A stretch of 64,000 nucleotides of DNA, taken from positions 1,054,001-1,118,000 of the forward strand of contig NZ_CP087164.1 of assembly GCF_021172045.1 (NCBI RefSeq), given 5' to 3'. The DNA comes from Capillimicrobium parvum (GTDB taxonomy: Bacteria; Actinomycetota; Thermoleophilia; Solirubrobacterales; Solirubrobacteraceae). The number at the start of each line of letters is the position of its first letter. Position 1 is the first letter of the stretch. Positions 26,661 to 54,326 of the stretch are shown here, one piece after another. The position numbers and the translations under genes were made by a program. Under the pieces are notes generated by a model. That model was given only the letters and a program-made list of their open reading frames with translations, was not told the origin of the DNA and did not search any database.

Positions 26661-26739
<79 letters not shown>

Positions 26740-26744
<5 letters not shown>

Positions 26745-26774
26745 TCCCTCTCGCCAGGGGGGCTTTCGTGCTTT
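26740..26774 (+). terminator. intrinsic terminator of tRNA-Met
   Basis: Stem aagcctccct/aggggggctt with loop ctcgcc, then tcgtgcttt. Versions of this hairpin follow all three att copies. Confidence 0.75.
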
Positions 26775-26800
26775 GTGGGCAGGTAGCGGGCGCGGAACAG

Positions 26801-26820: not shown

Positions 26821-26890
26821 TCTTCGCCGCGGCGTCAGGTAGCGTCCGCTGCGCACGACCCGGCGTCGATCGACGTTGCAGTCGCAGACC

Positions 26891-29800: not shown

Positions 29801-30352
29801 TTGGAGGATCTCGAGCGCCGCCGGGAGTCCAAGCTCGCCGCCTTCGAGGGGCTCGGCGTCGTTCGCCCCGGCACCGTCAGCCACATCGGCACGGCGCTCG
29901 TCGGCCCGCCCGAGCAGCCCGAAGAGCGCGAGGCGACGCGATCGATGCGCGAGGACGACACGGTCGAGCTGGCCGCGATCGCAGCCGCCGAGCGTTATGA
30001 GCGCGAGCACGGCCGCGAGTGGGAAGACGTCAGCCACTTCCGCGACGGACGCGGCTTTGACGCCCGCTCGTGGACCGAGCCGCCCGACGGCCGCGTCACC
30101 GACGTGCGCCGCATCGAAGTCAAGGGCCGCTCGGCCGCGCACGGCGACGTCTCGCTGTGCAACACCGAGTGGATCGCCGCCCACCGTCACGGCGAGTCAT
30201 TCTGGCTGTACGTTGTCTACAACGCGGGACAACAGGGGGAGCGGCTCGTGCGAATCCAAGATCCGGCACGGGCGCTCGCTGGCGAGGTCGAAGAACGTCA
30301 GCAGGTCGTCACGTGGCGCATCCCCGGAGCTGCGATCGAGGCAGTCGCGTGA
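26891..30352 (+). CDS. SNF2-family helicase with C-terminal DUF3883 domain (DrmD-like)
   Basis: A 1153-residue superfamily-2 helicase/translocase, probably an anti-phage component. The helicase core has Walker A ADDPGAGKTIMAG (about residue 130), DEAH in VVIDEAHKCSA (about 228), MTATPHSGDRSRFYNFL, the second RecA lobe LLIFTEHRDTLDYLERNL with IATEAAGEGINLQF, and the arginine-finger motif RMGRIHRIGQ (about 593). A long middle region and coiled coil precede a DUF3883 domain (RRIEVKGRSAAHGDVSL, near 1075). ATG 26891 is chosen; TTG 26876 is possible. It overlaps the methylase by GTGA, so the three genes are translationally coupled. Resembles DISARM DrmD, but no DrmABC is present. Confidence 0.9.
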   Translation: MFDVSTLSSFIGRRVLLRGQFVGPVTLDGVEDLGGTFSLRVRLPDGALRETVLDSEELSDGSSFEVLGEAMNLVNGGDLFDLVEAQRIEHAYAHDPNFAVSMSGVRGLPHQIEAVYRHMLPQPRLRFVLADDPGAGKTIMAGLLLKELRLRLVADRVLILCPAPLTVQWQDELHDKFDERFMLIDSHLVRWQLGESPWQEHDRCIASIDFAKRDEVLPDLLRAEWDLVVIDEAHKCSAASYPKVRDGGDELDRTKRYTLAEELSRRCERLLMMTATPHSGDRSRFYNFLRLLDPDQFAVDELAAEQIRNTDSPYFLRREKDDLVDEYGGKLFVEREVVTQPFDLGRAELALYEAVTEYIQHFLGPAGGGRGNAVALARTVLQRRLASSLGAIRSSLRKRADRISARLMELEALPPAERARRLRELKLAEPLADAEQDEDDATEAEEDLAAEGVVVAESLDQMRVEISALERLVVQADQTIRGGEEAKLVALRECLQKAELAELTEDGRGKLLIFTEHRDTLDYLERNLRDWGYSTCAIHGGLPPTQRKVVQQEFHQSKQICIATEAAGEGINLQFCHLMINYDLPWNPVRLEQRMGRIHRIGQQSKCVVFNFCATNTVEGKLLSRLLEKLELMRIDLGDKVYDVVGQVLTQGGLDFERLLRDAMIEPERVDAAAREITALDPEAYAAYERDIGIAQATRNVDVTWVRKRDWRSDERRLMPEFVERLFGRAADHVGLRLEDRRDGEHLLRAEHVPRSLRDDRLSSVQRLGPPQDRYLKMTFRKEARASAQHEDAVLLSPGHELYGASIEKMRELLRGADGGLAPFVAPWAREPYAIHFFTYVIQGMDLRGRPEQAWAELVAVVEDQDGPQLVSPDVLHDLTPIDYVPRALESPDPEALRRAANHVRSVVQTAKRREVSRERAEQARLRADYLRQAMDAQRDALRQRYELLEERVYRGEDAARFARDRAEVALEDLERRRESKLAAFEGLGVVRPGTVSHIGTALVGPPEQPEEREATRSMREDDTVELAAIAAAERYEREHGREWEDVSHFRDGRGFDARSWTEPPDGRVTDVRRIEVKGRSAAHGDVSLCNTEWIAAHRHGESFWLYVVYNAGQQGERLVRIQDPARALAGEVEERQQVVTWRIPGAAIEAVA

Positions 30353-33021
30353 ACATCGAGGACCAGCGCCTCATCGAGGACTACATCCCGGTCGAGGCGA
30401 TCAGCATCGTTGCGCAGCGCGAGAAGATCGGCCACGCGGCGCTGCACCCGCGCAAGCTGCACCTGTGGTGGGCGCGCCGCCCACTCGCGGCAGCGCGGGC
30501 CGCCGTCTACGCGACCCTCGTCCCGGTCGAGGGGACGCCGGACAGCGAGCGCTCCGACGACTTCTTCGTCTCGTTGTGCCAGTGGGGCGCGAGCGACCAA
30601 ACAATCGCTGAGGCCCGCCGACGGGTGCTGGCCGCTAACGGCGGCGTGCCGCCGAAGGTACTCGACCTCTTTGCCGGCGGCGGCGCGATCCCGCTCGAGG
30701 CCGCGCGGCTGGGTTGTGACGCGACTGCGGTGGAGCTCAACCCCGTCGCGCACCTCATCGAGCGCTGCACTCTGGATTACCCGCAGCGCTTCGGGCCCGG
30801 CTTGGCCGATGACGTCCGCGAGTATGGCCGCCGCTGGGTCGACCGCACCTGGGACCGTGTCAGCCATCTCTATCCGCGGGTCGTCGACCCCCAGGGCGAG
30901 CAGCAGCGCCTCGGCGAGGACCCGACCGCCGACCGCGTCGCGGGACGACCGATCGCCTACCTGTGGACGCGCACCGTTCCGTGCCCGAACACCGCGGGCG
31001 GCGCCCACGAGATGCCGCTTGTGCGCCAGACGTGGCTGGCGAAGAAGAAGGGGCGCTTCGTTGCGCTCAAGCCGGTGGTCGACCGCCCGGCGCGCTCGGT
31101 GTCCTGGGAGGTCGTCGAGGCCGCGTCGTCCGAGGCGCTCGGCTTCGACCCGGCTGGCTTCTCTAGCCGTGGCAAGGCGAGCTGCCTGGTGTGCGGCGCG
31201 ACCGTCGACGCGAAGGACGTCAAGGCGCTCGGCCTCAACGGGAAGATGGGCATCACGCCGCTGGCAGCGGTCGTAGTCAAGCCGAGCGGTCGCGGTCGGG
31301 ACTACCTACCGGTGGGAACTTATGAGCAGCCGTCGGCTGCGGAATGTGAGGCAGTGCTCGCGGGGCTGGACGTGACGCCACCGGAGGAGTCGCTCCCGCA
31401 GGAGCTGACCGGCGGGATGTGTACTGCGTACGGCTTGGGGCGCTTTCAAGATCTCTTCACCCCGCGACAGCTCGCGACGCTCTGTGCCTTCGCGCAAGGG
31501 GTGCGCGAGGCGCACGCGGAGATGCTTGTCGAAGGAATGGAGCCGCAGCGGGCGGGGGCGGTCTGCGCGTCCCTCGGGATGGCGCTCGATCGCGTCGTAC
31601 TCCGGAGCAGCACCATGTCCCTCTGGGACAACGGAAACCTGTCGGTGACAAACGCGATGAGCCGGCAGGCGCTACCAATGGTGTGGGACTTCGCCGAAGC
31701 AAATCCTTTCGGCGGCGGAGCTGGACAGGCCATCGAATACGTCGAGAACACTGCCGACATACTGGAAGCACTCGCAAGTGCGAGCCGTCGGGTCGAATGT
31801 CACCGTACGTCGGCAACCCAGCTCCCAGACCATGACAGCACGTTTGACGCGGTCATTACCGATCCGCCGTACTACGACTACATCGCTTACGCTGACCTTT
31901 CGGACTTCTTCTACGTGTGGCTGAAACGTGCAGTCGGCTTCCTCTTTGAAGACGAGTTCAGCGGCGAGCTAACGCCGAAGCGCCGCGAGGCAATCGTTGC
32001 GCCGTACCGCCATCACGGCGACAAGGCTGCCGCGCGGGCGTTCTACGAGGAAGCAATGGCCAACGCCTTCTTGGAGGCGCACCGTGTTCTCAAGCCGGGG
32101 GCGCCCCTCGTTTGCGTGTACGCCCACAAGACAACCCTCGGTTGGTCGGTTCTGATAGAGGCGCTGCGACGGGCGAACTTCACGATTACCGAGGCGTGGC
32201 CGCTCGATACCGAGATGACGTCCGCTTTGAAGGCGAGGACCGCCTCCCTCGCCTCCTCCATCTTCCTCGTCGCCCGTCGCCGCGACGACGAGACAGCTGG
32301 CGCCTACCACGAAGTCGTCGCCGAGCTCGACGGCGTTATCGAGGAGCGTCTCGAGCGGCTCACGCAGGCGGGGGTCTCGGGGTCCGATCTCGTGATCGCG
32401 ACGATCGGCGCGGCGCTGCGGCCGTTCACCCGGCACGCGAGCGTGGAGCTTCCCTCCGGAGAGCCGGTCGCGGCCGAAACGTTCCTCACCGATGTGCAGA
32501 CGCGGGTGCTTGACGCGGTGCTTGCCAAGGTCCATGACCTCGGCGCGGACGTCGGGGCGATCGACTCCGCGACGCGGTACTACGTGCTCTCGCGCACGAT
32601 GTTCGGCTGGGCCGACATCGACTTCGACGAGGCCAACAACCTCGCGCGCACCGCGGGGGTGGAGCTCAAGGACACGCTGGCCTCCGGGCCTCACTCGCTG
32701 GCGGATGTCAAGGGCAAGGCCGTGCACCTGCGCGACTTCGAGGAGCGCGGCGCTGACGCCGACCTCGGGCTCGCCGGCACGCCGCTGATTGACGTGCTGC
32801 ACGGCGTCCTTTGGCGTGCCAACCATCGGGTCGTCGATCTGCCCGACTACCTCGCCCGGGTTCGCCCGGACACCGACCGCCTGCGTGCCGTCGCGCAGGC
32901 GCTGCAGGGTAAGGCGCTGCGCGATGAGGGTGAGTCCAAGGCGCCGGAGGCGCAGGCCTGCGAGCGACTGCTCGGCTCTTGGCGCACGCTCGTTGAACGC
33001 AACCTGGAGGGCCGCCTATGA
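30349..33021 (+). CDS. DUF1156-type adenine-specific DNA methyltransferase
   Basis: An 890-residue putative N6-adenine DNA methylase (COG1743-like). The N-terminal DUF1156 segment has EDYIPVEAISIVAQREK and KLHLWWARRPLAAARA. The SAM site is VLDLFAGGGAIPLEAARLG (about residue 104). The catalytic motif DPPYYDYIAYADLSDFFYVW lies far downstream (about 504). A zinc-ribbon-like insert keeps CLVCG but has lost cysteines in its first knuckle (PCPNTAGGA). GC drops to about 58% in 31,621-31,980 against about 73% in 30,841-30,960, which suggests a mosaic origin. It probably marks self DNA for the linked helicase and ATPase. The start GTG 30349 overlaps the helicase stop; its own stop overlaps the next start (ATGA). 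Confidence 0.9.
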   Translation: MNIEDQRLIEDYIPVEAISIVAQREKIGHAALHPRKLHLWWARRPLAAARAAVYATLVPVEGTPDSERSDDFFVSLCQWGASDQTIAEARRRVLAANGGVPPKVLDLFAGGGAIPLEAARLGCDATAVELNPVAHLIERCTLDYPQRFGPGLADDVREYGRRWVDRTWDRVSHLYPRVVDPQGEQQRLGEDPTADRVAGRPIAYLWTRTVPCPNTAGGAHEMPLVRQTWLAKKKGRFVALKPVVDRPARSVSWEVVEAASSEALGFDPAGFSSRGKASCLVCGATVDAKDVKALGLNGKMGITPLAAVVVKPSGRGRDYLPVGTYEQPSAAECEAVLAGLDVTPPEESLPQELTGGMCTAYGLGRFQDLFTPRQLATLCAFAQGVREAHAEMLVEGMEPQRAGAVCASLGMALDRVVLRSSTMSLWDNGNLSVTNAMSRQALPMVWDFAEANPFGGGAGQAIEYVENTADILEALASASRRVECHRTSATQLPDHDSTFDAVITDPPYYDYIAYADLSDFFYVWLKRAVGFLFEDEFSGELTPKRREAIVAPYRHHGDKAAARAFYEEAMANAFLEAHRVLKPGAPLVCVYAHKTTLGWSVLIEALRRANFTITEAWPLDTEMTSALKARTASLASSIFLVARRRDDETAGAYHEVVAELDGVIEERLERLTQAGVSGSDLVIATIGAALRPFTRHASVELPSGEPVAAETFLTDVQTRVLDAVLAKVHDLGADVGAIDSATRYYVLSRTMFGWADIDFDEANNLARTAGVELKDTLASGPHSLADVKGKAVHLRDFEERGADADLGLAGTPLIDVLHGVLWRANHRVVDLPDYLARVRPDTDRLRAVAQALQGKALRDEGESKAPEAQACERLLGSWRTLVERNLEGRL

Positions 33022-35840
33022 GTCCGAGCCCTGCCTACGCGCTGCGACCCTGGACCGACGTCGTGCGCCCGCACGACGACATCCGTTCGGGGGACCTCGC
33101 GCTGGGCACCTACGCCGCGAATCTCGCGCAAGTCGCGATGACGCAGGAAGCCGCGCCGGTCTACGGGGATGCGGAGGCGTTCTTCGCAGCGACGTATTTC
33201 ACTCCGACGATGTGCGGCCTGCTGGCCGATGTCTTTGGGGCGCTGAGCGGCCAGCGCGGCGACCGCGTCGTGCAGCTCAAGACGCCTTTCGGGGGCGGCA
33301 AGACCCACTCGCTGCTCGCGCTCTTTCACCTGGCGCGCTCGCGCGCGGCGGCCGCGTCGGTGCCCGAGCTCGACGGAATTGCCGACCCGGGTGAGGTCCG
33401 CATTGCCGTGCTCTCGGGCGAGTACCTCGACCCCGCGCGCGGGCGCGAGGTCGAGGGCCGCGTCATCCGCACCCTGTGGGGGGAACTAGCCTTCCAGCTC
33501 GGCGGCTGGCGAGCCTACGAGCGGCTGCTCGTCGACGGCGAAGAAGGCCCGCCGCCGGGCGGGCAGCGGCTCGGAGAGCTTCTCGCGGGCACGCCGGCGC
33601 TTGTGCTGCTCGACGAGGTGCTCGTCTACGCGGCCAAGGCGAAGTCGCTGCGGCTCGGCGACTCGACCATGGACCGTCAGGTCCTGCTCTTCGTCCAGCA
33701 TCTCACCGAGGCCGTCAACCAGCAGCAGCACACAGCGCTGGTCTACTCCCTGCAGGCCAGCGTTGGGGAAGCGGTTGGCGAGGAGGGGCTGCTCGAGGCG
33801 CTAGAGAAGATCGCCGGACGTATCGACGAGCGTCGTGAGCCGGTCTCCGGCGACGAGGTGCTCCGCGTGGTCCAGCGCCGACTGTTCGCCGACGTGGGTG
33901 ATGACGATGTGCGTTCCGAAGTCGCGCGCGCCTACGGCGACCTGCTCACCGCGCAGCTGGCTGCGGCCGCCGAAACCGACGGCGATCGCCAAGAGGCCGC
34001 TGCAGCAGGGCGCGGCCTGGAGCAGCGCATCCTCGAGTCATATCCGTTCCACCCCGAGTTGCTGGATCTCATGTTCCACCGCTGGGGCTCGTTGCCGACC
34101 TACCAGCGCACGCGCGGCGCGCTGCAGTTCCTCGCCACTGTCGTGCACGCCCTGTGGGCCAAGCGCTCCGAGCGCGAGCCACAGCCCCTCATCGGACCGG
34201 GCGACGTGGACCTGGCCGACGAGGGCTCCCGGCTGACGTTCCTCGAGCAGGTCGGCGCGACAAACCAGTACGCCTCGGTGGTCCAGGCCGACTTTCTGGC
34301 AACCGATGCGGGCACCCGGCGGATCGACGAGCGGCTCGGGCGCGACGCGCCGGGCCTTGAGCGTGCGCGGGTCGGGACACGGGTGGCCACGGCGATCATG
34401 CTGCTCAGTTTCGGAGCTCGCGAAGGGGCCGAGCGTGGGGCGCTTGAGCGTGACGTGCTTGAAACCTCGCTCGCCCCGGGCCTGGACCGCAACGTGCTCC
34501 TCGGGGCCCTCGAGGGGCTGCGCGGCGAGGCGCTGCTTTTCCTCCACCACGTCGGCGGTCGCTACCGTTTCGAGCCGCAGCCGAACCTCAACCGGCTCAT
34601 CCAGCAGGAGACCGCCAATGTCTCCCGCGAGTCGGTGCAGATTCACGTTCGTGCGCGCCTCGAAGACGTGCTCGGCGCTCGAGGGGCGAGCCGCCACGTC
34701 GTGCTGTGGCCTGACGGCCCCGGCCAGGTTCCCGACGAGACCGAGGCTTTCCAGGTCGTCTACCTAGCCGCGGACTGGTCGCCCGCCCAGGCTGCGCTCT
34801 CGCGCTACGTCCTGGAGAGCGCCAGTGGCCCGCGTGTGGCGCGCAACGCGCTCGCGTTCGTGGAGCCGGCATCGGGGCGTTTCGACGATGCCCGAGCCGC
34901 CGCGCGCCGCGCACTTGCCGTCGAGGCCCTCCTAAGCCAGGGCAGCCGCGTTGGGCTCAGCGGCGAGCAGAAGGAGGAGTTGAGGGAGCGTTTGCGCGTC
35001 GCCGAGCAGGAACTTCGCGCAGCTCTTGGGCAGGCATACACCCGCGTGCATGTCCCGCTGGGGCTCGCCGACGACGGCACCGTGCGCTTCGCCACGCGCG
35101 ATCTTGGGACGATCCTCTCCGGCGGGCGGTCCCTCCACGAGCGTGTCCGAGAGGCGTTGCAGACCTACGTCGCGGATGAGCTCTTCCCGACGAAGATCGC
35201 TGCATTGGCCGACCTGAGCGACGAACGAGAATGGCGCTGGGTGAGCGAGGTGGCCCACGCGTTGCCGAGGTTCTTCGAGGCGCCGAAGGTTTGGAACCAG
35301 GACGCGCTCACGACGGGGGTGATCAAGGCGGTCGCCCAGGGCGCGCTTGGTTACGTCGCGGGGGCTCAGGAGCGGGACGGCGCGCTGTTCGCGCCTTCGA
35401 CAGGCTCGGTGCGCCTCCGCGAGGACCTGGATCCCGGAAGTGTCGGGCTCGGCGAGGGCTGTGCTCTGCTGCGCGTGAGCCTCGCCGAGCGACTCCGTTC
35501 GCCATCGCCTCCCGACGCCCGACCCCAGAACGACCCGCCTGCGCCACAAATCGGCCGGCCGGATCAGCTTCCGATTGAGGTGGCGCCCGGCGGCGATGCG
35601 ACTGGACTGGCGCTGAGCATTACGGCAACTGAGGACGATCTCTTCACGCTCAGCCAGGCACTCGGCAAACTCCGCGGCCTGCTCGGAGAGGGCGGGACGA
35701 TGGGCCTGCAGATCGAGGTACGTTCGGCGACGTCAGGAGAGGCCATCGACCGTCTCAAGGCCCGCAACACGGTGGTGGAGCCGCTCGAGGAGAACGATGG
35801 CGTAACGCTGAGTTGGCAGTGGACAGGGCAGACGCGCTGA
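33018..35840 (+). CDS. DUF499-family AAA+-like ATPase
   Basis: A 940-residue predicted ATPase (COG1483/DUF499). Near the N-terminus is LALGTYAANLAQVAM. The Walker A motif is LKTPFGGGKTHSLLALFHL (about residues 86-104) and Walker B is TPALVLLDEVLVYAAKA (about 193-209). SFHPELLD-like YPFHPELLDLMFHRW and ALQFLATVVHALW follow. The C-terminal part is a variable region ending VTLSWQWTGQTR. This family recurs with DUF1156 methylases and SNF2 helicases in defence islands. It is coupled to the methylase by ATGA. Its mechanical role is unknown. Confidence 0.88.
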   Translation: MSPSPAYALRPWTDVVRPHDDIRSGDLALGTYAANLAQVAMTQEAAPVYGDAEAFFAATYFTPTMCGLLADVFGALSGQRGDRVVQLKTPFGGGKTHSLLALFHLARSRAAAASVPELDGIADPGEVRIAVLSGEYLDPARGREVEGRVIRTLWGELAFQLGGWRAYERLLVDGEEGPPPGGQRLGELLAGTPALVLLDEVLVYAAKAKSLRLGDSTMDRQVLLFVQHLTEAVNQQQHTALVYSLQASVGEAVGEEGLLEALEKIAGRIDERREPVSGDEVLRVVQRRLFADVGDDDVRSEVARAYGDLLTAQLAAAAETDGDRQEAAAAGRGLEQRILESYPFHPELLDLMFHRWGSLPTYQRTRGALQFLATVVHALWAKRSEREPQPLIGPGDVDLADEGSRLTFLEQVGATNQYASVVQADFLATDAGTRRIDERLGRDAPGLERARVGTRVATAIMLLSFGAREGAERGALERDVLETSLAPGLDRNVLLGALEGLRGEALLFLHHVGGRYRFEPQPNLNRLIQQETANVSRESVQIHVRARLEDVLGARGASRHVVLWPDGPGQVPDETEAFQVVYLAADWSPAQAALSRYVLESASGPRVARNALAFVEPASGRFDDARAAARRALAVEALLSQGSRVGLSGEQKEELRERLRVAEQELRAALGQAYTRVHVPLGLADDGTVRFATRDLGTILSGGRSLHERVREALQTYVADELFPTKIAALADLSDEREWRWVSEVAHALPRFFEAPKVWNQDALTTGVIKAVAQGALGYVAGAQERDGALFAPSTGSVRLREDLDPGSVGLGEGCALLRVSLAERLRSPSPPDARPQNDPPAPQIGRPDQLPIEVAPGGDATGLALSITATEDDLFTLSQALGKLRGLLGEGGTMGLQIEVRSATSGEAIDRLKARNTVVEPLEENDGVTLSWQWTGQTR

Positions 35841-36793: not shown

Positions 36794-37258
36794 CTAGTCG
36801 CGGTCGCGCTGGACCTCGGAGAGGAGCCTGTCGAATGGGACGCGGTCGTGGCGCGGGTACTTCTGACGCGCACCATGATCGTCGATCCACCCGCGCTCGA
36901 AGCGTTCGAGGCGCAAGCGGTTGCGGTGTTTCAGTTGCTGGGGCGACCAGTCCGCCTTCTTGGGAGCCGCGCCGTAGGTGTCCCACCACGCGTGGATCGC
37001 CGCCTTGACGTAGGCGTCGGTGTACACGAAGTCGGAGCGTCTCGCGCGTCCGGGCTTGCGGAGCGTGGGCTGGTAGTTGAGGCGCCGTGAGAGCTCTGCC
37101 TCGCTGATCCCGAGCCTGCTTGCAACCTCGAACCGGATCTGGCCGTGGTGCTCCGGTGGCCACTCAGCACGTAGATGTTGCTCGAGTGCTCGAGCCTCGT
37201 CGGCGAGCTGCTGACGCCGCGTGGCGACTTCGTCTTCCCACGGAATCCGCCTGGCCAC
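36794..37258 (-). CDS. HTH protein with homing-endonuclease-associated-repeat-like segment
   Basis: A 154-residue protein of mobile DNA type. Residues about 35-55 look like an HTH (FEVASRLGISEAELSRRLN). The C-terminal half (AIHAWWDTYGAAPKKADWSP, then RFERGWIDDHGARQKYPRHD) resembles the HNE repeat found beside homing endonucleases. GTG 37258 (VARRIPWEDEV) is chosen; the frame extends to 37357. A truncated second copy lies at 47525-47661, where it is fused onto a broken XRE gene. Confidence 0.65.
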   Translation of the reverse strand: MARRIPWEDEVATRRQQLADEARALEQHLRAEWPPEHHGQIRFEVASRLGISEAELSRRLNYQPTLRKPGRARRSDFVYTDAYVKAAIHAWWDTYGAAPKKADWSPQQLKHRNRLRLERFERGWIDDHGARQKYPRHDRVPFDRLLSEVQRDRD

Positions 37259-37355
37259 GGGCCGCGAAGGATGACAGGAACGTAGGAATGTAGGAGCGCA
37301 GGAACAGGGATGAGCTTGCAAGACGCATGTGCGCCGCCTCGGCAGCGTTCGGCGC

Positions 37356-37583
37356 ATGGACGAACTACGAGCGCCTCAAACGAACCCGGAGCGACTCCTC
37401 ACGGCGGAGGAGGTGGCCGAGCGCCTTGGCATGACGGCGGCATGGGTCTATGAGCAGAGCCGAAACGGACGCATTCCGACCGTCCTGCTCGGTCGTTACC
37501 GCCGATATCGGCGCGAGGCGATCGACGACTGGATTCGCCACGTGGAACACGGCGCGGCGCCCGGCCGCACGAGGGCGCGATGA
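37356..37583 (+). CDS. excisionase-like HTH protein
   Basis: A 75-residue protein with the Xis/MerR-type winged helix: LLTAEEVAERLGMTAAWVYE, then RNGRIPTVLLGRYRRYR and IDDWIRH. It is a recombination directionality factor candidate for the downstream integrase. ATG 37356. It overlaps the next gene by 4 bp (ATGA) and is first in a four-gene coupled operon. Confidence 0.85.
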   Translation: MDELRAPQTNPERLLTAEEVAERLGMTAAWVYEQSRNGRIPTVLLGRYRRYRREAIDDWIRHVEHGAAPGRTRAR

Positions 37584-37948: not shown

Positions 37949-40482
37949 TGATGGCCCGCTGTCGAAGTGTCCGTGGCGCTCAGGAGCTCACCCTCTTTGG
38001 CATGGATGGTTGGGATCCCAGCACACCAGATCGTGCAGAGGAACCAGAACCACGAATGCTGAGGAACTTGCCTGATACCTCCGCCGGCGGTGCGGCTCCT
38101 GACTTGCCGCTCGTCGCGCTCTCCCGGCTGGTCGGAACGATGAACGGCAGGTCCGGTCGCGTTTGGCACATGGTCTGCCACGTCGCGGTCGCGTACGCCA
38201 CCACAGGGTTGTTCACCGCAAGCGGGGAGTTGGAGCCGGCACCGTTCGCGGACCTTCCTGGCGGCCCGTGGCCGGACGGTCCGACGGCGCTAAAGCGACT
38301 GGGCACCGACCTCGCCACGGTCCGTCGCAGTTATCGCCTCCTGGTCCACCAGTCCGGCCCATTGGCGACGTTGAGCGAGGAGTTGGTCGCCGAGATCGTC
38401 CCTCGGCGCCTGTGGCCGGTCATCTCGCGCATGGCCCAAGACGGGCCGGAGGTGTTCGCCCGGCGCGCCGACCGATCGCTGGAGACGTACGCACTAACGA
38501 CCGTCGCCGGTAACAAGCGCCGTACGGCCGGCCCGCCGTCCATCGAATCAGTGCGCACGCGCGCTTACGCGTTCCGCCGACTCGCCGGCATCTTCGTCGA
38601 GCTCAACCAGACCACCGACACGTACCCCGAGCTCGCTGACTGGACGCGACGTTCTGGCATCGCTGTGCCCAAGCCGCCCGCCGTCGTTCGGCGTGAGGTC
38701 CGCGCACCACGACTGGAGGTGGTGCGCACGACCTGGGCCGATCTCGACCGGCGTGTACGCAAGTTCCTCAGGATCGACGCGGGCGACGACCTCTTCGACG
38801 CGGTTAACGCGATGCCTGACTACCGCCTGGTCGCCGGCGGGCTGTACTTCGATCTTCGGCGACTGGTCGCGCTGGAGCTGTTCGTGCTTCTGGGAGGGCG
38901 CCTGGATGCGATCCGCCGCCTCAACAAGAGCGATCTCGTCCTCGACACGATCGGACCTGCGCCTGACCACCGGCACGGCGCCGTGCTGCTTCTGCGCCCG
39001 GGCAAGACGCTCGACGAGAACGTCATTCGTCGCAAGCCTCTCCCGCAGCAGACGACCCGGCTTCTGCAGGCGTGGCTTCTGTACCTCCGCCGTCACCGAT
39101 CGGCTGTGTACTACGCCGATGCGCGGCGTGTGAACCCCCGCCCCGAGTCACCGGACCTGCCGGCCGATCACCCGCTTCTGGTCGCTCGTCAGCAGACGCT
39201 CTCACGCTGGGACACCTCCGCGCTACGCGTCATGTTCTCCGGCCAGCCATCAAAGCGCGGCCGAAAGGGCGGGACCAAGGCGCTCATTCCCCGCGACGGA
39301 GGCTGGGCACCTGATCTGCCCGTCGAACTCCGCGCCTACGTCGGCTACACGCCCCACGAGTTTCGACGCCTGGCCCTGCAGCTTGCCGAGCGCGCTGGCG
39401 CGATGTGGGACCGGGAGCACCCTTCGGGCGCGGCGCAGACGCGCCTCGAGCCCGGGATGTACGGCAGTGCCCTACTTGACCACGCACCGCCCGGCAATCC
39501 CTTGCGAAATCTGTACGCGGATCGCCACCAGGAGGACCTCTACGAGTTGCTCTCCGGCCGGGCGATCGAAGGCATCCGACGTCTGCTGACCGGTCCAGAA
39601 GGCGCCCGGCGGCGCCCCGATCGCAAACGGCTGGAGGCCCTCGCGCAGCGGCTTCGACTCGTCGACGCCGAGATCGCTCGCTTGCATGAGCGAGCCGAAC
39701 GCCTCGCCGCCCGCGCGGCGCCAGGTAGCGCCCACATGCTGTCCGCGGGTCGAGACTCCGATGATGAGGACCCGAGTGACCGGCAACTGTTGGAGGCCCT
39801 CGTCGCCGGCCAGCGCGACGGCGCCGCCCAGATGTTTGAGCAGATGGACCGGCTCCGCATCGAGCAGGCAGAGTCCGGTCGCCTGCTCTACGAGCAGTCC
39901 GCTCTATACGAAATCCGCCAGCGTGTCCGCGAGGAGCTGGACGCCCTCTGGCACAACGAGACGCGATGGGAGATCGTGCCTGACGACGCGCCGCCCGGCG
40001 CAGAGACCATCGACTTCACGCTCGACGACATCCTGGCGGGCGCGGATCTCGCGCCCGCTCCGAGCCTCGTAGCTCCGACGCTCACCCCGATACGCGACTG
40101 GCTGCTGGTCGTCGAGCTCGCGGAGGTCGCGCAGATCGACCGAACGACCGTCGCTCGCTATCTGCACGGGCAAGCGCTCCCGCCTCGCCGCGACGCACGC
40201 CCGTGGGAACCATCGGCCATCCCGATGGACCGCTCACTCGGGCGGAGCTATCGACGCATCTGGATCCCAGGAGTCAACACCGAGTTCTGGCGAACAGAGG
40301 CGATGAAGCTGAGGCTCGCCGTCGCCCTGTCGTCCTGGCCAGCAGGCCCAGGCTGGACCAGAAACGGGCAACCGACCCGGCGCTGCACTGCGCCTCTGCA
40401 TCTTCCGCCCGGATTCGCCTCCGGCGCTCAGCCGACCGGGCACAGCGACGTAGCGACGCTGCTACCGGCGAACGGCCGCTGA
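37948..40482 (+). CDS. very large tyrosine-recombinase-like protein
   Basis: An 844-residue protein. A putative tyrosine-recombinase catalytic domain spans about residues 240-530. It has an Arg I box GGRLDAIRRLNKSDL (about 316), HxxR in YTPHEFRRLALQLAERAG (about 469), a late His in LLDHAPPG (about 509) and a candidate nucleophile in LRNLYADR (about 520). The C-terminal 320 residues add coiled coils (LEALAQRLRLVDAEIARLHE) and a terminal HTH (LAEVAQIDRTTVARYLHGQ), features absent from ordinary integrases. It lies directly before, and 1 bp overlapping with, a canonical integrase. It is either a second recombinase or a structural partner. Confidence 0.72.
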   Translation: MMARCRSVRGAQELTLFGMDGWDPSTPDRAEEPEPRMLRNLPDTSAGGAAPDLPLVALSRLVGTMNGRSGRVWHMVCHVAVAYATTGLFTASGELEPAPFADLPGGPWPDGPTALKRLGTDLATVRRSYRLLVHQSGPLATLSEELVAEIVPRRLWPVISRMAQDGPEVFARRADRSLETYALTTVAGNKRRTAGPPSIESVRTRAYAFRRLAGIFVELNQTTDTYPELADWTRRSGIAVPKPPAVVRREVRAPRLEVVRTTWADLDRRVRKFLRIDAGDDLFDAVNAMPDYRLVAGGLYFDLRRLVALELFVLLGGRLDAIRRLNKSDLVLDTIGPAPDHRHGAVLLLRPGKTLDENVIRRKPLPQQTTRLLQAWLLYLRRHRSAVYYADARRVNPRPESPDLPADHPLLVARQQTLSRWDTSALRVMFSGQPSKRGRKGGTKALIPRDGGWAPDLPVELRAYVGYTPHEFRRLALQLAERAGAMWDREHPSGAAQTRLEPGMYGSALLDHAPPGNPLRNLYADRHQEDLYELLSGRAIEGIRRLLTGPEGARRRPDRKRLEALAQRLRLVDAEIARLHERAERLAARAAPGSAHMLSAGRDSDDEDPSDRQLLEALVAGQRDGAAQMFEQMDRLRIEQAESGRLLYEQSALYEIRQRVREELDALWHNETRWEIVPDDAPPGAETIDFTLDDILAGADLAPAPSLVAPTLTPIRDWLLVVELAEVAQIDRTTVARYLHGQALPPRRDARPWEPSAIPMDRSLGRSYRRIWIPGVNTEFWRTEAMKLRLAVALSSWPAGPGWTRNGQPTRRCTAPLHLPPGFASGAQPTGHSDVATLLPANGR

Positions 40483-41627
40483 TGTCCCGCCGGCCATATG
40501 GGACCGGCTCGCTCTTCCAGCGAGGCTGCAACTGGTACGGCCAGTGGCGCGTGGATGGTCGCCTCGTCAAACGCAAGGTCGGACCGGTCCGCACAGCTGG
40601 CACGAGCGATGGGCTGACGCGCGTCCAGGCCGAACGCCGGCTCCGGCAGCTCACCCAAGCCACGAAGGTCGCGGCGAGCCACGAGCGCCTTTCGATCGCC
40701 GTTGCGGCCGAGGCCTACCTCACCCATCTCGACGAGGTCCTGGGCCGCAAGCCCACAACCTTGCAGGACTACCGCAGCATCCTGCGCCGCCACGTGATCC
40801 CCTTCTACGGCGACGTTAAGCTAGATCGCCTCAACGCAGCACAGGTCGCCGGATACCTGGCAAGTCGGCGCCGTGCGGGACTCGCCCCGAAGACGGTGGT
40901 CAACCACGCGAACTTCCTGCACGGGTTGTTCGGCTTCGCTGTGCGGCGAGGCTGGATGCCGTCCAATCCCGTCGAGGCGCTGGACAAGCCTCGAGCCCCA
41001 GATCGCGGCGGTGAGGTGCGGTTCCTGTCGGCCGATCAGCTGGATCGCTTGATCAGCCATGTTCGGGCGACGAAGTTCGCTGAGGTCGACCGGGCGATCC
41101 TGGTGACGGCCGCGCAGTCCGGCCTCCGCCAGGGCGAGTTGCTCGCCCTCCGCTGGAGAGACGTGGATCTCGAGGCGCGCGTCCTGCGGGTCCGGGAGAG
41201 CTTCACCCGTGGGCGTTTCAGCTCACCGAAGTCCCGCCATTCGACGCGGGCTGTGCCAGTGTCGGCACGAGTCGCACTGGCACTCAGCAGGTTGGCACAG
41301 GTATCGGCGTTCACGGCGCCCGAGGACCTCGTCTTCGCGCACCCTGAACTTGGCTCGGTGCTCGACAGCTCGGCGCTGCGCAAGCGCTTCACGGCGGCCC
41401 TCAAGGCGGCCGGCCTGCCGCACATGCGGTTTCACGACCTGCGCCACACGTATGGAACGGCCATGGCGGCAGCTGGGACACCGATGCGAATGCTGCAGGA
41501 GTGGATGGGGCACGAGAGCTACCAGACGACGCTCATCTACGCCGCGTACGCGCCCGACGCATCGCACGGCTTGAAGTTCGTCGAGCGCGCTTTCGGTCGC
41601 TCAGCGGATTCCGGCGAGGAGCTCTGA
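40482..41627 (+). CDS. int: tyrosine site-specific integrase
   Basis: A 381-residue phage-type integrase. The N-terminal arm-binding region has GTGSLFQRGCNWYGQWRVDG. The core-binding domain holds YRSILRRHVIPFYGDVKLDRL. The catalytic residues are complete: Arg in SGLRQGELLALRW, HDLRHTYGT, GHESYQTT and the nucleophile in LIYAAYAPD. It probably drives integration at the tRNA-Met site. ATG 40482 overlaps the upstream stop (TGATG). The convergent XRE gene overlaps its last 27 bp. Confidence 0.95.
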   Translation: MSRRPYGTGSLFQRGCNWYGQWRVDGRLVKRKVGPVRTAGTSDGLTRVQAERRLRQLTQATKVAASHERLSIAVAAEAYLTHLDEVLGRKPTTLQDYRSILRRHVIPFYGDVKLDRLNAAQVAGYLASRRRAGLAPKTVVNHANFLHGLFGFAVRRGWMPSNPVEALDKPRAPDRGGEVRFLSADQLDRLISHVRATKFAEVDRAILVTAAQSGLRQGELLALRWRDVDLEARVLRVRESFTRGRFSSPKSRHSTRAVPVSARVALALSRLAQVSAFTAPEDLVFAHPELGSVLDSSALRKRFTAALKAAGLPHMRFHDLRHTYGTAMAAAGTPMRMLQEWMGHESYQTTLIYAAYAPDASHGLKFVERAFGRSADSGEEL

Positions 41628-41813
41628 GGGGGGAACCCCGAGGGCGCGGGCGATCACGACGATCGTCGCGAGCCTCGGATCCCGGCCGGCCCGCTCGAGC
41701 AGGCTGATCTCGGTGCGGTGGAGGTTGCATGCGTCTCCGAGAGCCTCTTGAGAGAGCCCGAGAGCGAGTCGTTTGGCACGCAGGTTCGCGGCGAATCGCT
41801 CCCGCGGCGACAT
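41601..41813 (-). CDS. small XRE-family regulator
   Basis: A 70-residue Cro/CI-type HTH protein: LRAKRLALGLSQEALGDACN, LHRTEISLLERAGRDPRLAT and LGVPPSELLAG. It overlaps the end of the integrase gene by 27 bp and is divergent from the HNH nuclease gene. It probably represses that gene, like a controller protein of a restriction system. Confidence 0.9.
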   Translation of the reverse strand: MSPRERFAANLRAKRLALGLSQEALGDACNLHRTEISLLERAGRDPRLATIVVIARALGVPPSELLAGIR

Positions 41814-41886
41814 CGGCTCGATGCTCGCGGGAGGTAGACGAAAGCTCTACAGACAAAACCTCTCGGTCCGGATAATGTGCCGACGC

Positions 41887-42918
41887 ATGGGTGCCCGAAC
41901 GATGCTGAGGCGTCGCACCGAAAGGCGAGCGTTCTTCAGGCACCAGCGAGCGCATCTCGAGTACATCCCGGCGTTCAGCGGACTGCATGAGGAAGAGCAG
42001 GACCTTCTGTTTCAGCTCGCGGGCCGAGCGGCGGCCTCCCCGGTGACTGCGCTCAAGAGGGTGGCCCGCTTCCTTTGGCGTGAGCGCTACCTGCATGTGG
42101 TGCCGCAGGACGCCGACGCATTCGCGCTTCTTGTGTCTGCAGCCGCTCTCCTTGAGCTCGACCCGTCCGGGGGCCGGCGGCGACTCGAGAACGGGTCGTA
42201 CCGGTACCACCGCGCACTCAGTGCATGGTGGTGGTCGATGACTCTGAAGAATCGCGCTCGACAGCAACGCGACGTCGACGCGGTGCGAACGGCGGCGCAG
42301 GAGCTCGTGGACTGGCTCAGAGCCGGCGTGCCCGCGGCCAACGATCCACCGGTCATCGCACACGCTCGACTGCTTGTCGACCCTGACGGCAACTGGCTCT
42401 CGAAAGCCGGCTACCGCAGCAGCGGGAGCCGGGCGCGGCTGGTCCGCTCGCTGCTCTGGCAGGTCGAGCCTGTAGACCTGGTCACCGGTGAGCCGATGAT
42501 CGGGATCAAGTTGGTCGAGGCCAGCGGATCCAGCCGGCGCCAGCTCGTACAGGTCGAGCGCGAACACGAGCACCATGTATTCCCGCGCAGCTGGCTCGTG
42601 AAGCGGCCACCGATACGAGCCGGCGGCGACGTCGACCAGCCTGCGAACCTTGCGTTGCTGTCGCCGGCGACGAACTCGTGGATCTCGGACCGCGGCCCGG
42701 CTGATTACGTCACGTCGCTTGACAAGGCGTTCGGCCCAGAGCACGTAGACCGCATTCTGGCCACGCATCTGCTGGACGGAGCGCTCCTGCGAGAGAATGC
42801 GTTTGCCGACCAGATGACCGCCCGTGCCGACAGACTCGCTGCGATGGCTCGACGCATCCTTGATCCTCGGGAACTTCACGTCGTGCAGCCGGTGAAGGAG
42901 TGGCCGCGCGATGTCTGA
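41887..42918 (+). CDS. HNH-type nuclease with DUF1524-like C-terminal motif
   Basis: A 343-residue protein. The C-terminal part shows REHEHHVFPRSWL, then ANLALLSPATNSWISDR and PADYV, the histidine-centred HNH pattern found in the DUF1524 half of GmrSD-like restriction enzymes. No DUF262 N-terminal domain is present. The N-terminal half is helical and unassigned. Start uncertain (41875, 41887 or 41902). A -10-like gataat at 41871 would give a near-leaderless message from 41887. Its stop region overlaps the next gene by 8 bp. Likely defence or element-maintenance nuclease. Confidence 0.72.
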   Translation: MGARTMLRRRTERRAFFRHQRAHLEYIPAFSGLHEEEQDLLFQLAGRAAASPVTALKRVARFLWRERYLHVVPQDADAFALLVSAAALLELDPSGGRRRLENGSYRYHRALSAWWWSMTLKNRARQQRDVDAVRTAAQELVDWLRAGVPAANDPPVIAHARLLVDPDGNWLSKAGYRSSGSRARLVRSLLWQVEPVDLVTGEPMIGIKLVEASGSSRRQLVQVEREHEHHVFPRSWLVKRPPIRAGGDVDQPANLALLSPATNSWISDRGPADYVTSLDKAFGPEHVDRILATHLLDGALLRENAFADQMTARADRLAAMARRILDPRELHVVQPVKEWPRDV

Positions 42919-43669
42919 GCCATCGCGGGATCTGGTGTTCTCCGACCTGGTCGAGGCTTGGGCTCGTGTTCGTGATCCCCGGATGCAGGGTTCCCTCGCC
43001 TACGAGTTCTACGAGGTGATGGCCGACACGTTCGGATGCGATCTGCGTCGTGTGCCGAACCCGCCGCCCGTTGCCCCGGAGTGGCTGGGCGGTGCCATCG
43101 AGAGGATTGAGCGGCGCTACGGAGGGCGCTATCCGACCCGCTGGGCGCGGAGGGTCCATGAGTTTGTCGTGCGGTATGCCGAGCCGCGCCACGGCACGCG
43201 CAATCCATTCGCCCGGTTTCTCGAGATGGACGACGTCACGAGGGCGATCCGCGATCGCGACCCGGGCATCGATCTCACGACGCCCGCTGGCCGCTTGCGA
43301 TGGGAGGCGGTGATCGCGGGCCTCTTCGCAGATCTGTATCCCGAGGCGGCGGCAAGAACGGTCTCGTGGCAACAGGTTTATGAACTCGGCTTCGCCACCA
43401 AGGGCGGGAAGCTCACATGCGGTTGGTATCGCGAGGACGGGCCGCCCTGGGCGGCCGCTCCTGCTGCATCGAGTGGCATCGAGAGCGACGGTGACGGCGA
43501 CGCCCGGGTTGCCGAGCAGGCGGCGCCTCCGTCGCCCGAGGCGGCCGCGCTTCTCGACCGGAGCTGGCGCGGCCATGAGCTCTGGCAGGACTGGGTGGAC
43601 GGTCGCATTCCCGGCTTCCCGGACGACGACTCCGCGCTGCTGGACGCGCAATCCGGGCTGCGCCGCTGA
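42911..43669 (+). CDS. unknown protein paired with the HNH nuclease
   Basis: A 252-residue soluble protein that I do not recognise. Notable segments are YEFYEVMADTFGCDLRRVPN, RYGGRYPTRWARRVHEFVVR and WEAVIAGLFADLYPEAAART, then a disordered Ala/Pro linker and a C-terminal helix (HELWQDWVDGRIPGFPDDD). The 8-bp overlap with the nuclease gene suggests co-translation and a common function, for example as inhibitor, target-recognition subunit or partner. Confidence 0.72.
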   Translation: MSEPSRDLVFSDLVEAWARVRDPRMQGSLAYEFYEVMADTFGCDLRRVPNPPPVAPEWLGGAIERIERRYGGRYPTRWARRVHEFVVRYAEPRHGTRNPFARFLEMDDVTRAIRDRDPGIDLTTPAGRLRWEAVIAGLFADLYPEAAARTVSWQQVYELGFATKGGKLTCGWYREDGPPWAAAPAASSGIESDGDGDARVAEQAAPPSPEAAALLDRSWRGHELWQDWVDGRIPGFPDDDSALLDAQSGLRR

Positions 43670-45799: not shown

Positions 45800-46411
45800 A
45801 TGCCCCAGATCTCTATGACGACGTTCCTCGACTACATTGCCGCCACCGGGACGACCCGGCTGCGACGGATCTCGGACGCCAAGAAGCACTACGGTCAGGA
45901 GTACAACCCGGCGACCGACTTTTACGGGCCGCTCCGGAAGCGGATCGTTCAGACCTTCGAGGACGGCTGGGACCCCAACAAGTTCGACGTGCTCCTCGCC
46001 GAGGTCACCGACCCCAAGAAGCACGATCTGTACGGGGCGTGCCGCAACGGGTTGCGCAAGTGGGCCGGCGTGTCGGGCAAGAAGACGATCGTCTGGCAGG
46101 CGCCCAAGAAGGTGATCTGGAAGAGCGGCGACCTGGAGGTCAATGTCAGCCCGGAACTCTGGGTCGCCGTCGACGGCGGGCCGGAGATCATCAAGCTCTA
46201 CTTCAAGTCCGATAAGTTGACCCAGCACAAGGTGAACCTGTCGCTGCGTCTGCTGGAGACCACGGTCGGCGGCAACGGCACCGCCGTCGGCATCCTCGAC
46301 TTGCAGCGCGGCAAGCTGTTCCAGCAGACCACCGAGCCGCCGGACGGGATCGACCTCCTCCTCCAGAGCGAGGCAGCCGGGCTGGCGACGCTCTGGAACT
46401 CGCTCCCGTGA
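45800..46411 (+). CDS. orphan protein of unknown function
   Basis: A 203-residue protein that I do not recognise. GGGAGGG lies about 8 bp before ATG 45800, a strong ribosome site. The N-terminal half is helical (MTTFLDYIAATGTTRLRRIS, YGPLRKRIVQTFEDGWDPNK). The C-terminal half is beta-rich (LEVNVSPELWVAVDGGPEII, LRLLETTVGGNGTAVGILDL). Lysine content is higher than in neighbouring genes, which suggests foreign origin. No membrane segment or signal peptide. Confidence 0.7.
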   Translation: MPQISMTTFLDYIAATGTTRLRRISDAKKHYGQEYNPATDFYGPLRKRIVQTFEDGWDPNKFDVLLAEVTDPKKHDLYGACRNGLRKWAGVSGKKTIVWQAPKKVIWKSGDLEVNVSPELWVAVDGGPEIIKLYFKSDKLTQHKVNLSLRLLETTVGGNGTAVGILDLQRGKLFQQTTEPPDGIDLLLQSEAAGLATLWNSLP

Positions 46412-46519
46412 CGCGGGGCTTCAGAACCCGCGGCAATGTCATCGGTGGAGGGGGTTAGTTCGCAACTTTCTTGCTGGGCGGGCGGCAAACCTGCGCCGCC
46501 CGCCCGGACGCCATCCTCG

Positions 46520-47524
46520 CTAGACCACGACGCGCAGGTCGGGCGGTCCGCTCGTTGTCGGTGCCATCGCGTGTGCGCGCCCACGATCCGACGCCAGCGT
46601 GAGCCCGAATACGGCCCGGTTCAGTTCCTCCACTGGGACCCTGAGTTCGCGAGCGACGTCCCGACGACTCACACCCTCCCCCTTGAGGGTCTGGAAGACC
46701 TTCGGCAGGATCTGCGACGTCTCCCGCTCGATGCCCCGCGGTTCGCCGGCCCGGTAGCCCCGCTGACCGAGCTCGATGTACGTCGAGCGTGCCTGCCAAT
46801 CGCTGAGCAGGCCGAGGCGATGCATGCGGCGCGCCAGGTTCATCGCCGCGACATTCCACCGACGTTTGGCTCTGATGATCTGCTCCACGCCGCCGCCACG
46901 TGGCGCGTCGGCCAGGACGCTGCGCCGCGGCATCAGGAACGCCGAGCCGAACACCTGCGCTTCGTCTTCGGCGCGTCGCCGCCGGGCGCCCGTGCGTGTG
47001 CATGACGAGGTGGCCGAACGCGTGGGCTGCGTCCATCCGACTGCGTTCAGCCGTCTTCATGCTGTTGAGGAAGACGTACGGGATCCCGCGCCGCCAGAAC
47101 GAGAACGCGTCGACCTCAGCGCAGTCCTGCACGAGCGAATACACCCGGACACCGTGCGCCTCGAGCAAGCGGACCATGTTCGGCGCCCGTCGTTCGCCGA
47201 GGCCCCAAAGCGCCCGTAGCCCGTCAGCTGCTTGCTCCGGATCGGTGTCCCGCAGATGCGGCAGGTCGGGCTGTGGGAGGTCGAAACGTGCGCGGATCCA
47301 GTCATCGAGCTGCAGGGCGATCGTTGCGGCGCCGATCGCCTGGTGGCGCTGGCTCGCGGTCATCGCACTCATCGAGCGGAAGCTCACGCTCTCGACCGGA
47401 GGCTCCTCAATGTCCTCACCGACGAAGAACGACATCGGGAACGACAACGCGGCCGCGAGCCGCTCGACGGTCTCGGCGTACGGCTCGCGTTCGCCACGCT
47501 CGTACGAGGTGAGCTGCCCGCAAA
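46520..47524 (-). pseudogene. XRE / ImmA-IrrE metallopeptidase regulator, truncated and frameshifted
   Basis: Remnant of an XRE-ImmA/IrrE protein. One frame encodes the end of the HTH (QLTSYERGEREP), ALSFPMSFFVGEDIEEPP and the peptidase helix AAHAFGHLVMHTHG. The family HExxH here reads HAFGH, so the catalytic Glu is lost. Continuation shifts by one base near 46,955-46,985 to the frame AEDEAQVFGSAFLMPR, IIRAKRRWNVAAMNLARRM and VPVEELNRAVFGL, ending at 46520. The first HTH helices are missing and replaced at about 47,520-47,570 by the end of another gene. It is broken in three ways. Confidence 0.75.
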
Positions 47525-47661
47525 TCAGATTATTTTGGCCATGTAGCCGCACGGACATCTGGCCGGGTTCGCAACTTCGAATCGGATCTGGCCGTGGTGC
47601 TCCCGCGGCCACTCCAAGCGGAGTTCTTGCTCGGCTGCTCGTGCCTCGTCGGGGGCGGTCA
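47525..47661 (-). pseudogene. fragment of the HNE-like gene (second copy)
   Basis: A 45-codon piece whose residues EWPREHHGQIRFEVA match the start of the protein encoded at 36794-37258 (EWPPEHHGQIRFEVA). The similarity ends abruptly at about 47570, after which the frame reads into the XRE pseudogene sequence. The DNA match to 37,130-37,230 is obvious by eye. It marks a recombination junction. Confidence 0.7.
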
Positions 47662-49851: not shown

Positions 49852-49898
<47 letters not shown>

Positions 49899-49903
<5 letters not shown>

Positions 49904-49932
49904 CCCTCTCGCCAGGGGGCTTTCGTTCTTTC
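49899..49932 (+). terminator. intrinsic terminator after att copy 2
   Basis: Perfect 9-bp stem aagccccct/agggggctt with loop ctcgcc, then ttcgttcttt. It is carried along with the att duplication. Confidence 0.75.
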
Positions 49933-49955
49933 TGGGGGTCCGCGTCGAGGCGGCG

Positions 49956-54246: not shown

Positions 54247-54293
<47 letters not shown>

Positions 54294-54298
<5 letters not shown>

Positions 54299-54326
54299 CC
54301 CTCTCGCCAGGCGGCCTTCGTGTTTC
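54294..54326 (+). terminator. degenerate terminator hairpin after att copy 3
   Basis: aagccccct/aggcggcctt with loop ctcgcc and a weak tail tcgtgttt. The stem has a mismatch and a bulge compared with copies 1 and 2. Confidence 0.4.

Follow-up and report, generated by a model that had tools for sequence, protein, structure and literature searches.

An orphan GmrD-type nuclease and its overlapping partner gene in a tRNA-Met island of Capillimicrobium parvum

Our analysis concerns a module of three genes in a 64,000-nucleotide stretch of Capillimicrobium parvum DNA (the window, to which coordinates refer unless another locus is named), where a short XRE-type regulator gene diverges from a nuclease gene, which in turn overlaps the gene of a partner protein. 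Judged from sequence profiles and a predicted model, the nuclease is the C-terminal helical and HNH half of a GmrSD/BrxU-type Type IV enzyme, and the DUF262 half that precedes it in its relatives is missing. We tentatively suggest that both proteins form a two-subunit island nuclease, in which the helper would do the controlling job of the lost DUF262 sensor half while the XRE protein would repress the operon, although we regard this explanation as somewhat short of probable.

The regulator is encoded on the minus strand (41601-41813, 70 residues) and contains an HTH_3 domain (Pfam, E 8.2e-14), whereas the nuclease is found on the plus strand in a reading frame that is open from a stop at 41749 through 42918. 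The longest version of this frame begins with a TTG at 41773. Since this start would overlap the XRE gene and since the GC content at the three codon positions of 41773-41910 (0.54/0.59/0.74) differs from that of the remaining frame (0.74/0.48/0.77), an ATG at 41875, 41887 or 41902 is the more likely start, latter of which would place the gene at 41902-42918 and the divergent intergenic region at 41814-41901. The partner gene (42911-43669, plus strand, 252 residues) starts with an ATG within the 3' end of the nuclease gene, thereby sharing exactly 8 bp with it (42911-42918), and carries a ribosome-binding site (GGAG) about 10 nucleotides upstream. The two genes are thus probably translationally coupled via their overlap. 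In its layout, the locus agrees with an earlier note on this DNA, which had described a Cro-like gene divergent from a DUF1524-like HNH nuclease that lacks a DUF262 half and overlaps an unknown gene of 252 residues by 8 bp, and the features described below bear out its view of the nuclease, of the missing half and of the partner as a protein without known family.

The nuclease and its missing half

The assignment of the nuclease is carried by profile comparisons with GmrSD proteins, which had been proposed in the earlier note. In a search with a profile built from 25 viral GmrSD proteins, the nuclease frame was the sole match (E 1.4e-11) among 831 frames of the window and 2000 shuffled versions of the nuclease. 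A second profile, prepared from 16 relatives with the window protein excluded, scores it at 90 bits across positions 324-572 of the 604 in the model, which correspond to the half following DUF262. The independent viral profile was built because these 16 relatives had come from the window protein or its matches. Among sequences of the PDB, the alignment profile picks up BrxU (E 0.0016). In alignment with GmrSD-family proteins, the motifs HHVFPRSW and ANLALLS of the nuclease fall on their HNH motifs, and the HNH residues H224, H225, N249 and N258 are invariant with respect to its relatives. At the level of the class, 16 of 299 genomes, including that of Capillimicrobium parvum, contain a match at E <= 0.01. 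We have read 13 of these loci and removed one from the GmrSD set (L015, without the HHxFP motif); three further matches of this search were not used, one of them short and containing a stop (L014) and two read as unrelated (L016, L017).

A predicted model of the nuclease is mostly helical (predicted local distance difference test score, pLDDT, 70; predicted template modelling score 0.72). BrxU ranks first in a Foldseek search with this model (E 0.03, probability 1.00), and the model superimposes on residues 246-579 of BrxU with a Z-score of 12.8, compared to 7.5 for SspE and values of 5.3 and lower for HNH domains of Cas9. As the model is mostly helical, the Z-score is not decisive on its own, and it is the sequence profiles that make the case. 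No Pfam family was assigned to the nuclease above the cut-off, with PF07510 not reaching E 1, and NCBIfam, PADLOC and PHROGs likewise gave no family. Single-protein scans of viral contigs and genome contigs did not reveal close relatives, and plasmids and phages yielded partial matches only, from 11 plasmid records, all with coverage below 80%, and one phage record.

The absence of the DUF262 half extends beyond the nuclease protein. The signature DGQQR of this domain is found in frame in 10 of 12 class loci of nuclease relatives, with a further one (L005) containing it in a frame just upstream. Of 27 viral relatives, 25 likewise carry it in frame, and the other two contain it upstream in another frame. 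The window nuclease itself contains no such half, and no separate gene for it is present in the window or the genome. A separate GmrS gene elsewhere was rejected as an explanation, since PF03235 (DUF262) has no match across the whole 5.95-Mb genome, in a search that was positive in 8 of 14 control genomes. The consequence can be viewed in light of characterized enzymes. In BrxU, as described in the respective study (PMC8565348), the N-terminal domain must hydrolyse nucleotide before the C-terminal domain cleaves, and the C-terminal HNH domain requires D474 and H475. For SspE, a second study (PMC9646914) describes a conformational switch that activates the nickase of the C-terminal domain. Since cutting by the C-terminal half of BrxU depends on its N-terminal nucleoside triphosphatase (NTPase), a C-terminal half that occurs alone would be expected to require some other control. 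A third study (PMC4619093) counts 207 single-domain homologues of GmrS or GmrD that occur unpaired, and the orphan GmrD half is therefore not new as such.

The partner protein and its relatives

The partner family is missing from the libraries searched. No family from Pfam, NCBIfam, PADLOC or PHROGs describes the partner, whose best Pfam match (E 0.039) remains below the cut-off. Still, its sequence places it in a small, real helical domain family. A family profile prepared without the window partner detects it with 55.9 bits (E 1.3e-16; best of 500 shuffles 5.8 bits), and 67 to 138 bits were obtained for the other four founder sequences. With the five-row profile, further members reach 43.8 bits (genome G077), 33.1 bits (a broken gene of the same Capillimicrobium parvum genome) and 31.4 bits (a fusion to a GIY-YIG nuclease, G733b), compared to 10.4 bits for the best shuffle. 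The window partner displays the hallmarks of the family, a D..W motif near the N-terminus and a ..PF..(Y/F)(L/M)E(A)P.. motif. Its conserved domain covers approximately residues 1-170 and is followed by an acidic tail (170-252) that was not seen in its relatives. The AlphaFold model of the partner is helical, and nothing in the PDB or among viral models matched it at E < 0.001, a result that excludes nothing given the low quality of this model (pLDDT 65, three rows).

Our searches detected relatives of the partner in the same class only, where the family occupies nine loci. Within the family Solirubrobacteraceae, 4 of 146 genomes (own included) gave a match, compared to 4 of 232 in the order, counting strong matches, and 6 of 369 in the class. 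In a phylum sample searched with a two-row profile, the own genome was the only match (1 of 396), and no match was found in plasmids and phages.

The genomic context of these relatives ties the partner to nucleases, as six of the nine loci show a family member joined to a nuclease or nuclease-like gene or lying next to one, and it thus strengthens the functional link to the nuclease assumed in the earlier note. Besides the overlap in the window, these include a broken gene of the own genome near 5.529 Mb (L088 4982-5688, minus strand), where the partner domain follows a stretch resembling PD-(D/E)XK nucleases (EVK...TLWDLLK...YLV). This gene, which is located beside a tRNA-Phe, is a relic of another island. 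Its intact version is found in G212 as a fusion protein of 526 residues, with a tyrosine integrase in the locus. In G122, the partner gene overlaps by 4 bp a PD-(D/E)XK-like gene of 273 residues, followed by an integrase and a tRNA-Lys; the product of this 273-residue gene shares 27% identity over 79 residues with the LWD.LK...YLV region of the fusion (E 0.008 for this pair). The two remaining cases are both from G733, with the partner gene at the first locus (G733a) being divergent from a REase-ARP gene (PF22558, E 9.8e-16) and adjoining tetratricopeptide repeat (TPR) genes, and the partner domain at the second (G733b, L091 4591-5946, minus strand) located C-terminal to a GIY-YIG nuclease (PF20815, E 4.3e-14), about 0.8 kb from another REase-ARP gene (L091 2830-3759, plus strand). 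As the three PD-(D/E)XK-like cases represent one lineage, they count as a single kind, alongside HNH, GIY-YIG and REase-ARP as the other independent ones. Searches of the literature for REase-ARP and for PGN_0703 did not retrieve a paper.

At the other three loci, the partner homologue is located between TPR genes (G098, a Patulibacter metagenome-assembled genome from the same family; L034 5679-10264), beside TfoX_N (G077), or is preserved as a C-terminal remnant beside a TPR gene (G226, L090 5816-6826). The TPR genes adjoining partner homologues in G098 and G733 (L034, L033) are fused to PP2C and ADP-ribosylglycohydrolase. Among the candidates, the own-genome relic (L045) and the GIY-YIG fusion (L046) are real, and the weak candidates L040-L044, L047 and L021-L024 were judged by eye to be chance matches.

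The regulator and the mobile island

The earlier note had likened the layout to a controller and a restriction-type pair, and in its classical form this likeness did not hold. The XRE protein matches the PADLOC profile Control_protein (E 9.8e-14), which is a generic match to its helix-turn-helix. A C-box was not found, as the best site contains 3 mismatches in 8 positions and is equalled in 496 of 500 shuffles, and no methyltransferase adjoins the nuclease, the nearest being HmaB (30070-33021), which is part of the Hma set. We have thus rejected a classical Type II restriction-modification controller system. An inverted repeat of 8 bp (41799-41806/41826-41833) is a weak candidate for an operator, as 5.7% of shuffles do as well, and a sigma-70-like promoter was not found in the divergent intergenic region.

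The nuclease is surrounded by the genes of an integrase, of the partner and of a second XRE protein. The tyrosine integrase (40203-41627, plus strand; Phage_integrase E 3.5e-32, phrog_1 E 5e-68) is located directly upstream, with its 3' end overlapping that of the XRE gene tail-to-tail. Its open reading frame exceeds the gene, and the integrase match starts near residue 92. Both are part of an island of 23 kb that is integrated at a tRNA-Met (26661-26734, plus strand, identified by ARAGORN) and that contains the integrase and an Hma system. It is bounded by a left direct repeat of 87 bp (26693-26779), comprising the 3' end of the tRNA-Met and its flank, and a right repeat that is 95.4% identical to it (49852-49936). 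This mobile defence island thus carries the module of XRE, nuclease and partner genes as cargo. The Hma operon (HmaA-HmaB-HmaC, 26876-35840, plus strand; PADLOC E 9.5e-185, 9.3e-129 and 3.6e-115), located directly behind the tRNA-Met, is complete, encoding a helicase, a methyltransferase and an ATPase, and an excisionase-like HTH_17 gene is found at 37329-37583. The GC content at third codon positions is mostly 0.75-0.80 between the first two repeats, with exceptions including HmaA (0.88) and 45800-46411 (0.94), and 0.95-0.99 for most genes before 23 kb.

A third repeat copy of 66 bp (54247-54311) delimits a second unit of 4.4 kb that follows in tandem between the second and third copies and contains BrkB-like and PRC-barrel genes. 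Within the island, a gene on the minus strand (46455-47612) encoding an RmrA/spr1629-like protein with XRE and Peptidase_M78 domains appears frameshifted, as its profile match ends midway and the remainder is encoded by the frame 46520-46954. A direct repeat of 21 bp (37134-37154 and 47583-47603) is located in two frames of the minus strand, both of which encode the peptide EHHGQIRFEVA.

Explanations for the pair and relation to known systems

In the mechanism that we tentatively favour, the nuclease subunit, consisting of central helices and the HNH domain, corresponds to the catalytic, DNA-cutting half of a GmrSD/BrxU-type enzyme that has lost its DUF262 NTPase and sensor half. The partner, as small helical accessory subunit co-translated with the nuclease, would bind to it and hold or license it in place of the DUF262 half, so that DNA would be cut only once a phage or other element is sensed, with the divergent XRE protein keeping the operon repressed. 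Fusion of the partner domain in cis to nucleases fits such an accessory module. Several observations weigh against this proposal. The model of the partner is of low confidence, the loop GELYGGAxETR, which is conserved in relatives, is missing from the nuclease, no second copy of the nuclease-partner pair is found elsewhere, and the surroundings of the partner homologue showed no nuclease at three of nine loci (G098, G077 and G226). Moreover, the PD-(D/E)XK reading of G212, G122 and the own-genome relic is based on motifs read by eye, and no Pfam, NCBIfam or PDB family matches these parts.

The same data have to be weighed for other explanations. The partner could be an immunity protein for a half nuclease that is toxic alone, in a toxin-antitoxin system stabilizing the island or in abortive defence, which we regard as unlikely. 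The overlap of the genes and the XRE regulator would be consistent with this role, as would the charges of the proteins, with isoelectric points (pI) of 10.0 for the basic nuclease, 5.1 for the partner and 4.5-5.4 for its relatives (net charge -6 to -16), and the lone copies at three of nine loci would fit orphan immunity genes. However, within the window partner the conserved domain is almost uncharged on balance (net charge +1, pI 7.9) and acidity is confined to the tail, the nuclease gene comes first in order, and three relatives are fused C-terminally to a nuclease or nuclease-like protein, which would be unusual for an inhibitor. Whereas these fusions favour an accessory acting in cis over a pure inhibitor, the acidity of the relatives and the lone copies favour the inhibitor, and our confidence in the accessory role is restrained for this reason. 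Fusion in cis to three unrelated kinds of nuclease or nuclease-like domains, as shown by targeting domains, would be expected if the partner was a specificity subunit directing the HNH half towards phage DNA, whether modified or not, yet the acidity of its relatives and the lack of a match to any DNA-binding family or fold make this role improbable.

We also consider it rather unlikely that the locus is decaying, with a GmrSD gene that would have lost its 5' end in a rearrangement of the island and now lie beside a leftover gene. The loss of the DUF262 half and of the conserved loop would agree with decay, as would the integrase immediately upstream, further broken genes within the island (46520-47612) and the broken partner relative elsewhere in the genome. 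Conversely, both frames are intact with coding-like GC content by codon position, the HNH residues are kept, and the overlap and ribosome-binding site are preserved. In addition, the alignment of the predicted model with BrxU begins right at the first residues of the form starting at ATG 41902, which suggests a cut at a domain boundary rather than at random.

If a two-subunit nuclease is assumed, its relevance concerns the question of control. In GmrSD, BrxU and SspE, it is the DUF262 half that recognizes the target and allows the HNH half to act, and a natural HNH half that is instead coupled to another gene would let us ask what minimum control such a nuclease requires. We regard it as possible, though doubtful, that a hitherto undescribed helical domain of Thermoleophilia-type actinobacteria serves as a portable module that controls or licenses the nucleases of islands, attached by fusion or overlap to at least three unrelated superfamilies (HNH of the GmrSD type, PD-(D/E)XK-like and GIY-YIG), and that it here took over from the DUF262 sensor. 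If the partner family indeed controls unrelated nucleases, it would offer a new marker for defence genes unnamed by current profile libraries. Literature searches on REase-ARP, on GmrSD proteins without DUF262 and on DUF1524 toxins and immunity, the last including PMC11980606, did not reveal such a pair, which does not prove its absence in print.

Collectively, the comparison with known systems places the window nuclease closest to BrxU and GmrSD, with which it shares the C-terminal helical and HNH half, the positions of the catalytic His and Asn residues and a predicted fold covering residues 246-579 of BrxU, while it differs from them in the absence of the DUF262 NTPase half and of the GELYGGAxETR loop and in the presence of an unrelated partner gene. 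Its model also aligns with the C-terminal half of the phosphorothioate-sensing DUF262-DUF1524 protein SspE, whose N-terminal sensor domain it lacks, and no sspABCD genes were seen in Pfam and PADLOC scans of selected window genes. The single-domain GmrD proteins described in PMC4619093 are likewise GmrD halves without GmrS, whereas the window nuclease is coupled to a conserved accessory gene in a genome without any GmrS. As in systems with Type II C proteins, a small HTH_3 protein adjoins the nuclease gene, but the locus contains neither a C-box nor an adjacent methyltransferase. Finally, the GIY-YIG (PF20815) and REase-ARP (PF22558) nucleases of G733, although their folds are unlike that of the window HNH nuclease, carry or adjoin the same partner domain.

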